Shown here piece after piece: positions 46,515 through 50,718 of a DNA stretch of 64,000 nucleotides. Numbering within the stretch: the stretch's first letter is position 1; every line of letters starts with the position of its first letter. A program made the position numbers and the translations under genes. The notes below the pieces were generated by a model. That model was not told the DNA's origin. It saw only the letters and a program-made list of their open reading frames with translations, and did no database searches. Source of the stretch: Cellulomonas sp. WB94 (GTDB lineage Bacteria > Actinomycetota > Actinomycetes > Actinomycetales > Cellulomonadaceae); NCBI RefSeq assembly GCF_003115775.1, contig NZ_QEES01000002.1, positions 2,542,001 through 2,606,000 on the forward strand, in the 5' to 3' direction.

Positions 46515-47376
46515 GCGCGACGCCGGCGTCGAGGTCACCCGGCTCGACGCGAGCGAGTATGCGGCGGGCACGCTCGGTGTCGTGACGAGCCCGTCGCTCT
46601 TCGCCGAGGACCGGGTCGTGGTCGTGGCCGGTGTGGAGCGTGCGACGGACGAGCTGATCGAGGACGCGCTCGCCTACCTCACGGCACCGCAGCAGGACGT
46701 CACGCTCGTCCTGCGCCACGCGGGAGGGCAGCGCGGCAAGAAGCTGCTCGACGCCTTGCGCGCCGGTGACGGTGTCGTCGTGGCGTGCGAGCCGGTGAAG
46801 AAGGACGCCGACAAGACGGCATTCGTGACGGCGGAGCTTCGCCGCGCGGGGCGTCGTGCGAACGCCGCGGCGGTGCGCGCGCTGGTCGACGCGGTGGGCA
46901 GCGACCTGCGTGAGCTCGCGTCGGCGTGCGCCCAGCTCGCGGCCGACACCACCGGTGCGATCGGTGTCGACGTCGTCGAGCGGTACTACGGGGGACGCAT
47001 CGAGGCAACGGGATTCCGGGTCGCCGACGCGGCTGTCGAGGGGGATGCCGGGCAGGCGGTCGCGCTGCTGAGGCACGCGCTCGCCACCGGGGTCGACCCG
47101 GTGCCGATCGTGGCTGCGCTCGCGGCCAAGCTCCGCATCCTCGCCAAGGTCGCGGCGACGCGCGGGCGCGGCTCGGCGGCGGTCCGTGACCTGGGACTCG
47201 CACCGTGGCAGGTGGACCGGGCCCTACGGGACCTGACGCGCTGGACGCCCGAGTCGCTCGCGGCGGCGATCACAGCAGTCGCGCAGGCGGATGCCGAGGT
47301 CAAGGGTGCGAGCCGCGACCCCGAGTTCGCGGTCGAGCGCGCCGTTCTTCGCGTCGCGTCAGCGCGTTCGCGGTGA
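46345..47376 (+). CDS. holA: DNA polymerase III subunit delta
   Basis: A 343-residue clamp-loader subunit. It begins (GTG at 46345) MPPATRSHRTTG, then GLTWDDAQLAPVVLVSGAEE, the usual actinobacterial HolA start, followed by LLADRAVDRLI and the AAA-fold without a functional Walker A, as expected. The C-terminal collar domain runs to GASRDPEFAVERAVLRVA. With HolB and DnaX it opens the sliding clamp. The start lies within the comEC frame, so the two overlap by 170 bp. It is convergent with the EAL gene, overlapping it by 18 bp. Confidence 0.95.
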   Translation: MPPATRSHRTTGRPPSGGPATGLTWDDAQLAPVVLVSGAEELLADRAVDRLIGLARERDAGVEVTRLDASEYAAGTLGVVTSPSLFAEDRVVVVAGVERATDELIEDALAYLTAPQQDVTLVLRHAGGQRGKKLLDALRAGDGVVVACEPVKKDADKTAFVTAELRRAGRRANAAAVRALVDAVGSDLRELASACAQLAADTTGAIGVDVVERYYGGRIEATGFRVADAAVEGDAGQAVALLRHALATGVDPVPIVAALAAKLRILAKVAATRGRGSAAVRDLGLAPWQVDRALRDLTRWTPESLAAAITAVAQADAEVKGASRDPEFAVERAVLRVASARSR

Positions 47377-48144
47377 GGGGACGGCGGGGGCGCGCTCGAA
47401 CACCATCGTCGGCTGGACGATGTTGCCCTGGAACAGCGTGAAGCCGGCGGCGGCGCACCTGTCGAGAGTCGCGTCGTCCTCGACGCGCTCTGCCACCAGG
47501 ACAGCACCGAACCGTGCGGCGAGCCGGATCAGCGCAGTCCCCTGCCGGGCGAGGTCGCGGATGTCGAGCTTCACGTAGTCAGCGTGGGGGAGCAGGGCGA
47601 CCTGGTCGTCGAGCCCGGCGAAGTCGTCGATGGCGATCCGGTACCCGCGAGCCCGCAGGGCCTTCACGCCCGCGAGGACCGCGGGGTCGGCCCGGACGGA
47701 CTCGACGATCTCCAGGACGAGGCGCGCCGGGTCGAGCGGCAGCGACAGCTCGCCGACCAGGTACGAGCGGGTCACGTTGACGAACGCCAGGTGGTCGGCG
47801 GCGACGCTCGCGACGCCGGAACCGCCGAACACGCAGTCGAGCACCGCCGCAGTCGCTCCGTCCTGCCGCGCGGGCGTCCAGCGGTCGACCCGTACGGGCC
47901 GACGGGACGGCGCGCGGTAGAGGAACTCGTAGCCGATGGTCCGGCCGGCCGATGTGACGATCGGTTGCCGACCGAGCCGGGTGCGCCAGGTCGCGGCTGA
48001 GCTGGGCGCGCGCGGCGCCGTGTCGGCGGCGATCCACTCGACGGACGCGGACGCGGGGGCGGCGAAGGCAGGGCGGAACGGCACGCCACGGACCGTCCAT
48101 GGGTCATGGCGAGCTGAGTGCCGTTCGACGGGGAGGCTGCTCAC
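47359..48144 (-). CDS. EAL-domain protein, catalytic residues conserved
   Basis: A 261-residue, one-domain EAL protein without GGDEF, PAS or membrane helices. Positions of the usual cyclic-di-GMP phosphodiesterase residues are filled: Glu73 in GYEFLYR (the EAL motif), Asn123 in FVN, Glu145 in VLEIVES, Asp173-Asp174 in AIDDFAG, Lys192 in YVKLD, Glu219 in VAERVED and Gln239 in FQGN. It may therefore hydrolyse c-di-GMP, although the motif is EFL and the fold is shorter than usual. GTG start overlaps the upstream EAL gene stop by four bases (GTGA). Confidence 0.85.
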   Translation of the reverse strand: MSSLPVERHSARHDPWTVRGVPFRPAFAAPASASVEWIAADTAPRAPSSAATWRTRLGRQPIVTSAGRTIGYEFLYRAPSRRPVRVDRWTPARQDGATAAVLDCVFGGSGVASVAADHLAFVNVTRSYLVGELSLPLDPARLVLEIVESVRADPAVLAGVKALRARGYRIAIDDFAGLDDQVALLPHADYVKLDIRDLARQGTALIRLAARFGAVLVAERVEDDATLDRCAAAGFTLFQGNIVQPTMVFERAPAVPSPRTR

Positions 48145-48884
48145 GCGACACGTCTCGCGATCCGGGCCGCGGACCTGTCCAGGACGGTGGGCGGCTCGAG
48201 CAGGTTGCCTTGCAGAAGATCGAAGCCCAGGTCGCAGCTGTGCTCGAGCAGCCAGCTGTGCTCGACGAACTCCGCGATGAGCAGCGCGCCGTACGAGCGG
48301 GCGAGCTCGACGACGGGCCGACCCTCGACGTCGAGGTCACGGACGTCGATCTTGACGAAGTCGGCATGGGGGAGAAGGAGTCGCTGCGAGGGCCGGCTGA
48401 CGAACCCGGGCACGGCGATCCGGAACCCACGGTCGCGCAGGTTCCGGAGGGAGCCGATCAGCTGGTGGTCGATCTCGACGTGCTCGGCGACCTCGATGAC
48501 GAGCCGGTCCGGACGTTCGGGGATCGGAAGCTCGCCCATGAGGTAAGCGCGCGGGAACCGGACGAAGAGCCACCGGCCCTGCGAGACGTCCTCGAAGTTC
48601 GTCCGCCCGAAGGTCGATCGGAGCACGTGGGCAGTGGCTCGTTCGTGCTGGAACTCGCTCCACGAGCCCGACACGAGCGGTTCGAGGGTGGGGGAGCGGT
48701 AGGAGAGCTGGTAGGCGAACGGCCGCAGCCGGTTCGTGAAGATGCCCTGTCGACCGATCAGCACGGGTTCGTGGGCGACGTGCTGGTCCCACTCGCGCTG
48801 CGCGCAGTCCGGGATCGCCGCATCGACGGCAGCGGCAAGCTGCGTCTCGGGCTCCCACCAGGACTCGTCAGTCATGTAGACCAT
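48141..48884 (-). CDS. Degenerate EAL-domain protein (predicted inactive)
   Basis: A 247-residue homologue of the next gene. It keeps the fold (RLVIEVAEHVE, LPHADFVKIDVRDL, LIAEFVE, LLQGN), but the EAL glutamate is Gln59 (YQLSYR), the FVN asparagine is Arg109 and the DDFG aspartates are replaced (VPGFVS). Catalysis is thus unlikely; it could bind c-di-GMP or form a heterodimer with the active-looking partner. The ATG at 48884 or the one at 48875 could be the start; neither has a clear Shine-Dalgarno. It is divergent from a small secreted peptide gene. Confidence 0.82.
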   Translation of the reverse strand: MVYMTDESWWEPETQLAAAVDAAIPDCAQREWDQHVAHEPVLIGRQGIFTNRLRPFAYQLSYRSPTLEPLVSGSWSEFQHERATAHVLRSTFGRTNFEDVSQGRWLFVRFPRAYLMGELPIPERPDRLVIEVAEHVEIDHQLIGSLRNLRDRGFRIAVPGFVSRPSQRLLLPHADFVKIDVRDLDVEGRPVVELARSYGALLIAEFVEHSWLLEHSCDLGFDLLQGNLLEPPTVLDRSAARIARRVA

Positions 48885-49011
48885 GACACCACACGCTGTC
48901 GAACATGACACTCACCCATCTGTGTGACCCCCGGGTGAAGATGGTTCGTGTGGCGCGCGTGGCGCTGTGCGTGCGGTCGAGCGGACGGTCGGAACTCACC
49001 CGCCAAGTGCG

Positions 49012-49070
49012 CGACAAGTCCGTCGCCGAGCCGTCATAATATTGCTGACATCAAGTCAGTCCACTGTGAC
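49012..49070 (+). promoter_or_regulatory. Promoter and palindromes upstream of the 45-aa peptide gene
   Basis: GCGACA (49012-49017), 17 bp, CATAAT (49035-49040) form a good promoter in a locally AT-rich patch (CATAATATTG). Downstream of the predicted start of transcription lies the perfect inverted repeat CTGAC-ATCAA-GTCAG (49045-49059), overlapping GTCA-N8-TGAC (49055-49070), which abuts the AGGAG ribosome site at 49071. The GACAT...CAGTC spacing resembles the site at the regulator promoter 300 bp downstream. Confidence 0.5.
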
Positions 49071-49082
49071 AGGAGACCTATC

Positions 49083-49220
49083 GTGCGCATCACCGTGAAG
49101 TCCGCAACCGCCGTCGTCCTCGCCGTGCTCATCTCGATCAGTGCTGCCACCACCTCCCAGGCCTCCGAGTACACGCCGCTCGGCGGTGCCACCGGTTGCT
49201 GCCGCGACATCATGAAGTGA
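49083..49220 (+). CDS. 45-residue secreted peptide precursor, candidate signal peptide
   Basis: GTG start seven bases after AGGAG. The product is MRITVKS, then a hydrophobic core (ATAVVLAVLISISAA), then TTSQA, a textbook Sec signal with a likely cleavage after Ala27 (S-Q-A). The mature peptide would be SEYTPLGGATGCCRDIMK, 18 residues with adjacent Cys39-Cys40. A short exported peptide immediately upstream of an XRE-TPR regulator is the arrangement of RRNPP quorum-sensing pairs, so it may be a pheromone precursor; an antimicrobial or metal-binding peptide is the alternative. Too short for most gene finders. Confidence 0.7.
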   Translation: MRITVKSATAVVLAVLISISAATTSQASEYTPLGGATGCCRDIMK

Positions 49221-49257
49221 CGACGGGGGTGACCGCGACGAACGCGGCACTCTCGCC

Positions 49258-49303
49258 TGGCGTGGTGGTGGCGGGGACGTGCCCGTTCCCGCCCACCACG
49301 CCA
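49258..49303 (+). terminator. Hairpin between the peptide gene and the XRE-TPR gene
   Basis: TGGCGTGGTGG (49258-49268) pairs with CCACCACGCCA (49293-49303), and an inner GGCGGG/CCCGCC continues the stem after a 2-nt bulge. It begins 38 bp after the peptide stop, without a U tract. It probably ends the peptide transcript, so the regulator needs its own promoter. Confidence 0.65.
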
Positions 49304-49349
49304 AGTCGCCGCGTGAGATGGTTGCCTGGAGTGAATCTCGACCAAGATG

Positions 49350-49381
49350 CAGACATTCTCATCAGTCACAGGTACAGTGAC
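49350..49381 (+). promoter_or_regulatory. Promoter and operator of the XRE-TPR regulator gene
   Basis: CAGACA (49350-49355), a 17-bp spacer and TACAGT (49373-49378) form a promoter that would start transcription at or next to the ATG at 49387 (leaderless). The palindrome GTCACAGGTACAGTGAC (49365-49381) spans the -10 element; seven of eight arm positions excluding the centre pair in the outer part. A bound regulator would block its own transcription. Confidence 0.55.
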
Positions 49382-49386
49382 CCAAC

Positions 49387-50718
49387 ATGACGACCATTGC
49401 TGACCGAGTCCGCCAGGGGCGGATCGATGCAGGCCTCTCCCAGACGGCCCTGGCCGGAGGGGCCTTCTCACCGAGCTACATCTCGCTCATCGAGGCCGGT
49501 CGACGCGAGCCGACCGACGCGGCGCTCGCTGTCCTCGCCGCCCGGATGGGTTCGACGGTGGAGTTCCTCAAGTTCGGTGCCGACGGCCCGAACGAGGCTC
49601 GGACCCGTCTCGAGGTCGACTTCGCCAAGCTCGACGTGAAGTCGGGCGCGGCCGCGTCGGCTCGCGAGCGCATCTCGCGTCTCGACCTCGACCGTGTGAC
49701 GCACGCGCTCAAGGTGGAGGCTCTGCTGACCCTTGCCCGAGCCCACGAGGGTCTCGGTGATCTGGAGTCGTCGGTCGCCATCCTCGAGCCGCTGCTCGTC
49801 GACGCGCAGGCTCGCGGGCACCACCTCGACGCGGCGGGCGTCGCGACGGGCCTGGTCGCCTCGTACCTCGAGGCCGGCGACCTGCACCGGAGCATCGAGG
49901 TGGGCGAGCGCGTGGTCCTCGACCTTGAGAAGGCGGGCCTGTCCGGGACGGACGAGCACCTGCGACTGGCCTCGACCCTGCTCTGGGCCTACGTCGAGCG
50001 CGGCGACCTCCTGTACGCCACGCACCGCGCCTCGGAGCTGGTGCGGCAGGCCGATGAGCAGGGCACACCGCGCGGTCGGGGCAGCGTCTACTGGAACGCC
50101 GCGCTCGTCGCGGAGCAGCGTCGTGACTACGACCTCGCTCAGCGCTACACCGAACGGGCGCTGGCGCTGCTCGACGGCGGCGAGGTGAGCCGGGACGTGC
50201 CGCGGCTGCGACTCAACTACGCATGGCTGCTGCTCCGGAGCGATCCGGCAGAGCCGATCGAGGCGCTCCACCAGCTCGAGCTGGCCACTCCCGACCTTGT
50301 GGCGTCGGGCTCCGAGGTCGAGCTGGCGCGGGTCGATGTCGAACGGTCGCGGGCGCACCTCCTGCTGGGCGACTCCGACGAGGCGGAGCGGTGTGCGCGA
50401 GCAGCCATCGTCCGTCTCGGTGACCAGCCTCGTCTGGAGAAGGCAGTCGCCCAGCTCGCGCTGGGGGACGCGCTGCACACGAAGGGCGACATCGTGGCGT
50501 CGGCCGAGGCCTACAAGTGGGCAGCCGACATGCTCGGGATGATGTCCGCGAGCCGGCAGTCGGCGGCCGCATGGCGTGAGCTCGGAGACCGGCTCCTCGG
50601 CAACCGCGACATCGCCGGCGCGGCTGAGGCGTTCGACCGGGCGCTGCGGGAAGCCGGGTTCCGGCCGTCTGTCCCGGCCGCGCTGCTCGAGGCGTGGAGC
50701 GGGTCCTCGGCGAGCTGA
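49387..50718 (+). CDS. XRE-family regulator with TPR repeats (RRNPP-like receptor)
   Basis: A 443-residue protein: an N-terminal helix-turn-helix (about 3-62; IADRVRQGRIDAGLSQ, then SPSYISLIEAGRREPT) followed by an all-helical region (about 85-435) with tetratricopeptide-like pairs such as ALLTLARAHEGLGDLESSVA and RYTERALALL. This is the architecture of Rap/Rgg/NprR/PlcR peptide receptors and of some actinobacterial regulators. There is no Shine-Dalgarno; a promoter -10 element eight bases upstream suggests a leaderless mRNA. A 45-residue secreted peptide gene lies immediately upstream. DNA target and ligand are not known. A perfect terminator follows. Confidence 0.9.
   Translation: MTTIADRVRQGRIDAGLSQTALAGGAFSPSYISLIEAGRREPTDAALAVLAARMGSTVEFLKFGADGPNEARTRLEVDFAKLDVKSGAAASARERISRLDLDRVTHALKVEALLTLARAHEGLGDLESSVAILEPLLVDAQARGHHLDAAGVATGLVASYLEAGDLHRSIEVGERVVLDLEKAGLSGTDEHLRLASTLLWAYVERGDLLYATHRASELVRQADEQGTPRGRGSVYWNAALVAEQRRDYDLAQRYTERALALLDGGEVSRDVPRLRLNYAWLLLRSDPAEPIEALHQLELATPDLVASGSEVELARVDVERSRAHLLLGDSDEAERCARAAIVRLGDQPRLEKAVAQLALGDALHTKGDIVASAEAYKWAADMLGMMSASRQSAAAWRELGDRLLGNRDIAGAAEAFDRALREAGFRPSVPAALLEAWSGSSAS

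Follow-up and report, generated by a model that had tools for sequence, protein, structure and literature searches.

A conserved propeptide–regulator gene pair in Cellulomonas and other actinobacteria resembles RRNPP peptide–receptor signalling systems

The window, the whole 64,000-nucleotide stretch of Cellulomonas sp. WB94 DNA that was analysed, contains two minus-strand EAL-domain genes followed by a propeptide gene, a regulator gene and then rpsT. The nearest named relative of the window genome is Cellulomonas sp. KJC.2. The features at the locus are as follows:

47359..48144, minus strand: another degenerate EAL-domain gene, probably transcribed together with the one at 48141..48884, which it overlaps
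48141..48884, minus strand: degenerate EAL-domain gene in divergent orientation, the predicted target; it matches the C-terminal half of PF00563
48871..48887, no strand: predicted operator GTCATGTAGACCATGAC, GTCA-N9-TGAC, where the divergent EAL gene begins
49033..49049, no strand: predicted operator GTCATAATATTGCTGAC, GTCA-N9-TGAC, at the peptide promoter, exact in 25/41 loci; a -10-like CATAAT lies inside it at 49035-49040
49055..49070, no strand: second inverted repeat GTCAGTCCACTGTGAC, GTCA-N8-TGAC, between promoter and ribosome site, present in the nearest relatives
49071-49075: ribosome site AGGAG of the propeptide gene
49083..49220, plus strand: propeptide gene, 45 aa, a real ORF with start GTG at 49083 and a stop that ends at 49220
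49164..49217, plus strand: predicted mature peptide SEYTPLGGATGCCRDIMK with vicinal Cys, delimited by a putative cleavage site from the sequence and a comparison of 41 peptides
49258..49303, plus strand: strong GC-rich hairpin between peptide and regulator genes (fold z = -4.2), possible terminator
49365..49381, no strand: predicted operator GTCACAGGTACAGTGAC, GTCA-N9-TGAC, at the regulator promoter, in 39/41 loci; it encloses a -10-like TACAGT just 5′ of the regulator ATG
49387..50718, plus strand: XRE/TPR receptor-like regulator, 443 aa, with ATG at 49387 and a stop that ends at 50718

The start codon of the EAL gene at 48141..48884 is uncertain, and the ORF list begins this gene at 48911.

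A sequence-only reading of this DNA had described a GTG-started ORF of 45 residues with AGGAG and a Sec-type signal, next to a 443-residue regulator with an N-terminal HTH and TPR-like helices, and both descriptions hold. The propeptide consists of an n-region with R/K, a hydrophobic core, a signal-peptidase-like SQA and a mature end with GGATGCCR. In the regulator, HTH_31/HTH_3 matches cover residues 5-60 and TPR matches extend over approximately 106-425 (TPR_2, 38.4 bits with a cut-off of 27; TPR_8, 29.7 bits with a cut-off of 25.7). The window peptide matched no Pfam, PHROGs or NCBIfam model, and four of its relatives matched no NCBIfam model.

A genome scan with the regulator recovered 41 loci (L008-L047 and, as the forty-first, L048). 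A comparable peptide gene adjoins the regulator at every one of them, upstream on the same strand at 40 and divergent at L048. Across these 41 loci the signal sequences diverge and a vicinal Cys-Cys near the C-terminus is kept, which is the pattern that the sequence-only reading had proposed to look for among relatives. In L008-L047 the peptide ORF ends 70-196 bases 5′ of the regulator and has the C-terminal motif GCC[RKW]. The L048 regulator has 37% identity, and its double-Cys peptide, encoded on the opposite strand, has a 30-residue tail after the CC. Composition was counted in the window peptide and those of L008-L047, again 41 in total, with start codons chosen by a script. These peptides are 41-48 residues long, all have K/R within the first ten residues, and 35 contain AxA, the window peptide with its SQA being among the six that do not. 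In eight close species pairs, chosen by us, non-synonymous differences occurred at 33 of 763 sites versus 52 of 305 for synonymous differences, approximately a quarter per site, and the non-synonymous value was lower in all eight pairs. For 135 unaligned pairs of equal length, pN and pS were alike (0.359 versus 0.387, with pN lower in 75), which we read as saturation and misalignment. In the eight close pairs, then, the peptide ORF is under a purifying pattern, which on comparative grounds marks it as more than chance.

The regulator occurs once in the window genome and once in each of six further genomes of the genus; three of these seven genus loci (L003, L004, and L007) are unoriented and were left out of same-strand peptide scoring. 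At the family level it was found in 99 of 221 genomes and 4 of 25 genera (E ≤ 1e-30). With the window genome included in each draw, it was detected in 23 of 396 genomes from the order and 7 of 396 from the phylum (both E ≤ 1e-40), and in 70 of 296 from the class (broader profile, E ≤ 1e-25). The peptide check covered part of the 99 family genomes and part of the class-draw matches. All eight loci of genus g2 have the peptide, as do the other fetched orthologues from the family except L086 and L087. In actinobacteria outside this family the peptide gene usually diverges from the regulator and sometimes follows it, so the pairing survives rearrangement, and the peptide often ends exactly in CC (e.g., ...WPGMCC, ...SPGDFCC, ...HPPTCC, and ...AGPTWCC). 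A double-Cys ORF is present at 27 of the 29 loci L119-L147. No double-Cys peptide was detected at six phylum-level relatives (L106-L111) or, bar a chance ORF at L183, in the Streptomyces-size genomes of family f21. The sequence-only reading had named two outcomes that would count against it, a peptide that is not conserved in relatives and a regulator mostly without the peptide gene; instead, the pair is present at 41 of 41 loci and in several other families.

Downstream of each of three Cellulomonas regulator paralogues (L088-L090) there are at least two double-Cys peptides. At one of them (L090:2600-3700) several diverged double-Cys ORFs follow a single receptor paralogue, like a competing-signal family. 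At L102:303-4302, on the minus strand, an open frame of 1444 residues matches the receptor profile in three stretches and adjoins a normal-size receptor with a double-Cys peptide.

For a census, 151 regulator ORFs were found by profile in the kept loci, the window copy not included. A Sec-like double-Cys ORF lies within 600 bases of 114 of the 151, which are non-independent rows from related species (named loci overlap other genomes, and recognised repeats were dropped). By score, such an ORF accompanies 65/67 regulators at 500 bits or more, 22/26 at 350-500 and 21/25 at 260-350, versus 3/13 at 200-260, 2/5 at 150-200 and 1/15 below 150. Taken at a threshold of at least 260 bits, 108 of 118 regulators have one (none was scored at the other 10), versus 6 of the 33 weaker ones (none at 27), and the pairing thus belongs to a bounded receptor family and not to XRE/TPR proteins at large. 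The nearest ORF is upstream on the same strand in 53 cases, upstream on the opposite strand in 47, downstream on the opposite strand in 9 and downstream on the same strand in 5. The automatic test counts some chance ORFs (e.g., at L183), misses L048, and for the first copies in L091 and L092 counts a peptide that belongs to a neighbour. At L018, L021, L026, L027, L078, L093, L098, L104, and L135 the nearest ORF is a chance one and the likely peptide is also there. Loci L119 and L132, scored negative, include only approximately 230 and 300 bases of sequence before the regulator. At least two of the far hits (L090) look like true peptides.

High-GC genomes are rich in spurious ORFs, and the peptide gene could in principle be a chance frame beside an ordinary XRE/TPR regulator. 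Sec-like double-Cys ORFs numbered 129 in 174,483 bases near receptors versus 19 in 726,108 bases elsewhere, a 28-fold enrichment. Together with the conservation at 41 of 41 loci and the purifying pattern in the eight close pairs, this enrichment refutes the chance reading, to which we assign a negligible probability.

Relatives were also sought outside chromosomes. Among plasmids (16 records, five loci examined), two from Streptomyces carry annotated hypothetical proteins shaped like the peptide. On pSMg1-1 of Streptomyces sp. Mg1, WP_008741297.1 adjoins the regulator gene, and on a plasmid of Streptomyces sp. NBC_01707, WP_331750220.1 is approximately 1.9 kb from the regulator. Plasmid pSMg1-1 (L239:2486-4548) encodes, side by side, a receptor relative, a peptide ending in ...DIPLCC, another small protein that looks secreted and a BTAD-domain regulator, and a link of this cluster to specialised metabolism is possible. 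A viral collection yielded one weak match of 55 residues. From a phage collection we recovered a receptor relative on one unverified, unannotated scaffold labelled as phage from human faeces (L242, MT836207.1); no Sec-like double-Cys ORF was found in the 4,060 bases examined, and the scaffold is perhaps a bacterial fragment.

The gap between the two genes had been said to contain a terminator hairpin. The hairpin stands, and its terminator role is plausible at best, since no T-run follows 49258-49303 and the terminator scan called nothing. The two Cys codons shortly 5′ of this strong hairpin would fit transcriptional attenuation of the regulator by a Cys-responsive leader peptide, and in the window the peptide gene has the position expected of an attenuator, in cis on the regulator's strand and 5′ of it. 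In other families, however, the peptide gene mostly diverges from the regulator and is sometimes found downstream of it, and the regulator has a promoter palindrome of its own. We rejected attenuation on the gene orientation in other families and consider it extremely improbable.

The sequence-only reading had recognised GTCA...TGAC palindromes at the peptide and regulator promoters, which are confirmed, and had missed the third one at 48871-48887. The 64 kb window contains five GTCA-N9-TGAC sites versus 1.23 expected, a number reached in 0 of 100 shuffles, and three of the five fall within 511 bases at this locus. Palindrome counts over 41 loci refer to the window and L008-L047, all of which have the pair. 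The EAL-start palindrome is present in 40 of these 41 versus 0 of 12 Cellulomonas genomes without the pair (Fisher p = 5e-11, a figure that ignores descent). Outside the 41, it is present in L091, L092, and L114; L093 and L094 have the pair and an EAL gene yet no EAL-start palindrome, and L079, whose EAL gene lies elsewhere, has none. In genus g2 the palindrome occurs upstream of the peptide at 8/8 loci and at the regulator promoter at 6/8. It is also upstream of the regulator in L098, L100, L102, L103, and L105 of family f15, whose ORF lists indicated no clear target, and was not found upstream of the regulator in the loci of f16 and f18.

Six of the seven genus genomes contain a single copy of the strict form GTCAYANNTANNRTGAC, in each case at the regulator promoter. 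The looser GTCAY-N7-RTGAC was found at 18 places in the window's own genome versus 4 for the reversed control. Two of the 18 are at the locus, where the peptide-promoter site fits GTCA-N9-TGAC alone, and the other 16 lie in apparent coding frames. A search of this genome for a wider regulon revealed no further promoter-like site, and the regulon suggested by the motif is therefore the locus itself. Our guess is that the excess inside coding frames, about four times the control, reflects codon usage. Before the peptide promoter, at 48925-49005 of the window and in many of L009-L047, there is a further recurring element (GGGTGRA... and TTCACCC), which may be a site for another regulator.

In place of the EAL signature motif the two EAL-domain proteins have, by eye, EVA and EIV. 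Given this degenerate signature, a binding or regulatory function is more likely for them than phosphodiesterase activity. When window proteins were searched against L008-L047 (tblastn), holA and an EAL gene upstream of the pair were detected at 40/40 loci, comEC at 35 and rpsT at 38; the two loci without an rpsT match, L014 and L035, end before rpsT. Some Cellulomonas loci have one EAL gene and others two, and at the genus g2 loci no EAL match was found upstream of the pair. A link to competence through the nearby comEC is recorded as a remark only, as comEC, holA and rpsT persist where the pair is absent.

A toxin-antitoxin-like or bacteriocin layout can also consist of a short hydrophobic peptide next to an XRE regulator; a small membrane-active or antibacterial peptide would then only have its expression controlled by the XRE protein. 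Against this stand the signal-peptidase-like sites and the kept double-Cys end; plain repression needs no long TPR region, and the divergent EAL gene is marked by the same palindrome. We therefore regard a toxin or bacteriocin as improbable.

Thirteen genomes of genus g4 (Cellulomonas) had no regulator in the family-level scan, and 12 were examined, G081 (67% complete) being left out. Between the EAL gene and rpsT of these 12, neither a regulator match nor a double-Cys ORF was found. The EAL and rpsT matches are 181-355 bases apart, and two EAL genes are kept. In a holA tree the 12 form one clade (87/90 support) nested among species that have the receptor, and the L086 and L087 genomes group together as another, so these absences amount to about two events and not fourteen. 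Loci L086 and L087 have a syntenic divergent regulator and no double-Cys peptide, EAL palindrome or promoter palindrome; they are natural orphan receptors.

RRNPP or RRNPPA systems (Rap, Rgg, NprR, PlcR, PrgX, AimR, and ComR) have in common a Sec-type propeptide adjoining a TPR receptor with an HTH. To our knowledge, none of their pheromones has a vicinal Cys pair. The present pair is like these systems in the palindromes at its own promoters and in profile matches to PlcR and to the ComR HTH. In detail, profile A3 matched PlcR (2qfc) at E = 2e-5 over profile positions 3-182, covering the HTH and first TPRs, which are common domains, and also matched the ComR HTH. The window regulator as a single query had no PDB match, and PlcR is absent from the matches listed for profile A1. 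Unlike RRNPP systems, the pair is actinobacterial, its peptide has a kept vicinal Cys, and its receptor has no assignment to a named subfamily. In streptococci a doubled C-terminal residue, WW, matters in XIP, the peptide of ComR. ComR/XIP likewise combines an XRE-TPR receptor with a doubled C-terminal residue, but the present peptide has CC, not WW, and a classical Sec signal, a resemblance rather than a demonstrated orthology. The NsdA family of Streptomyces (NCBIfam NF053720) is likewise an actinobacterial TPR regulatory family; two relatives reached only 16.5 and 22.7 bits with a cut-off of 75, and the family is not among the matches listed for the window protein. RamB (NF038139) has a similar N-terminal HTH, but the window regulator scored 17 bits, far under the cut-off of 700.

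The RRNPP signature, in the accessible part of PMC10075063, comprises a small Sec-secreted propeptide and a TPR receptor of 250-500 aa encoded by adjacent genes. At the window pair the propeptide has 45 aa (range 10-100), the receptor has 443 aa and TPRs, and the genes are adjacent, which bears out the RRNPP-like layout claimed earlier as far as sequence can tell. From their accessible parts, the RRNPP surveys PMC10075063 and PMC9765709 covered Firmicutes, and the former also viruses. The same portion of PMC10075063 describes actinobacterial signals as typically small molecules, and that of PMC4748050, a review of actinobacterial signalling, treats gamma-butyrolactones and cyclic or modified peptides. 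Neither portion describes an imported-peptide receptor pair in actinobacteria, and the accessible part of PMC8467076, on competence, contains nothing on such a pair. No actinobacterial counterpart family appears among the literature titles listed, whose coverage excludes preprints and most subscription journals. The pair looks like an undescribed peptide-signalling family in many actinobacteria.

A gene pair, a peptide end and palindromes at three promoters are conserved, and the pair is jointly absent in one clade. The best explanation is an RRNPP-like peptide–receptor signalling pair in actinobacteria, to which we assign a probability of about 0.7; the pairing at 41 of 41 loci and in other families supports the circuit first suggested by the sequence-only reading. 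The propeptide would leave the cell by the Sec route and be processed by signal peptidase, yielding a short peptide whose kept feature is the vicinal Cys pair. The peptide would be re-imported, probably via an oligopeptide permease, and bound in the groove of the TPR domain of the cytoplasmic XRE/TPR protein. Without peptide, the receptor may occupy GTCA-N9-TGAC at three promoters and so repress its own gene as well as those for the peptide and the divergent EAL protein; repression is favoured because the palindromes overlap -10-like elements or start codons. Peptide binding would release or change the receptor, so that expression of the EAL gene or genes and of the peptide gene rises together; in Cellulomonas, one or two EAL proteins would then be the output.

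Across families only the Cys pair is retained, and the remaining residues of the mature peptide vary. This would suit chemical sensing, in which the exported Cys-Cys peptide probes for metal ions or the thiol redox state outside the membrane, its form (oxidised, metal-bound or free) being read by the receptor after import. Yet the recurring Cellulomonas neighbours tested are comEC, holA, EAL genes, rpsT, and MazF-like and ATP-grasp genes (the last two named by eye), none of them obviously metal- or redox-related, and the residues before CC differ by clade, as a recognition sequence might. We consider chemical sensing unlikely. Within the peptide–receptor reading, a tentative extension, possible but rather doubtful, is that the HTH-TPR receptor recognises the peptide according to the thiol state of its C-terminal vicinal Cys (free, disulphide, metal-bound or mixed with the thiol of the cell itself). 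The pair would then belong to a widespread actinobacterial family of redox-conditioned pheromones, wired in Cellulomonas to a divergent EAL gene.

Firmicutes are the group in which signalling through HTH-TPR receptors and imported peptides has been described. Comparative evidence extends the earlier reading in two ways: the divergent EAL gene is a probable target, and the family reaches far past the window. If the peptide–receptor reading is true, it would give soil and antibiotic-producing bacteria of many actinobacterial families a new, synthesisable class of signal, and the double-Cys tag would make the family easy to find and to test.
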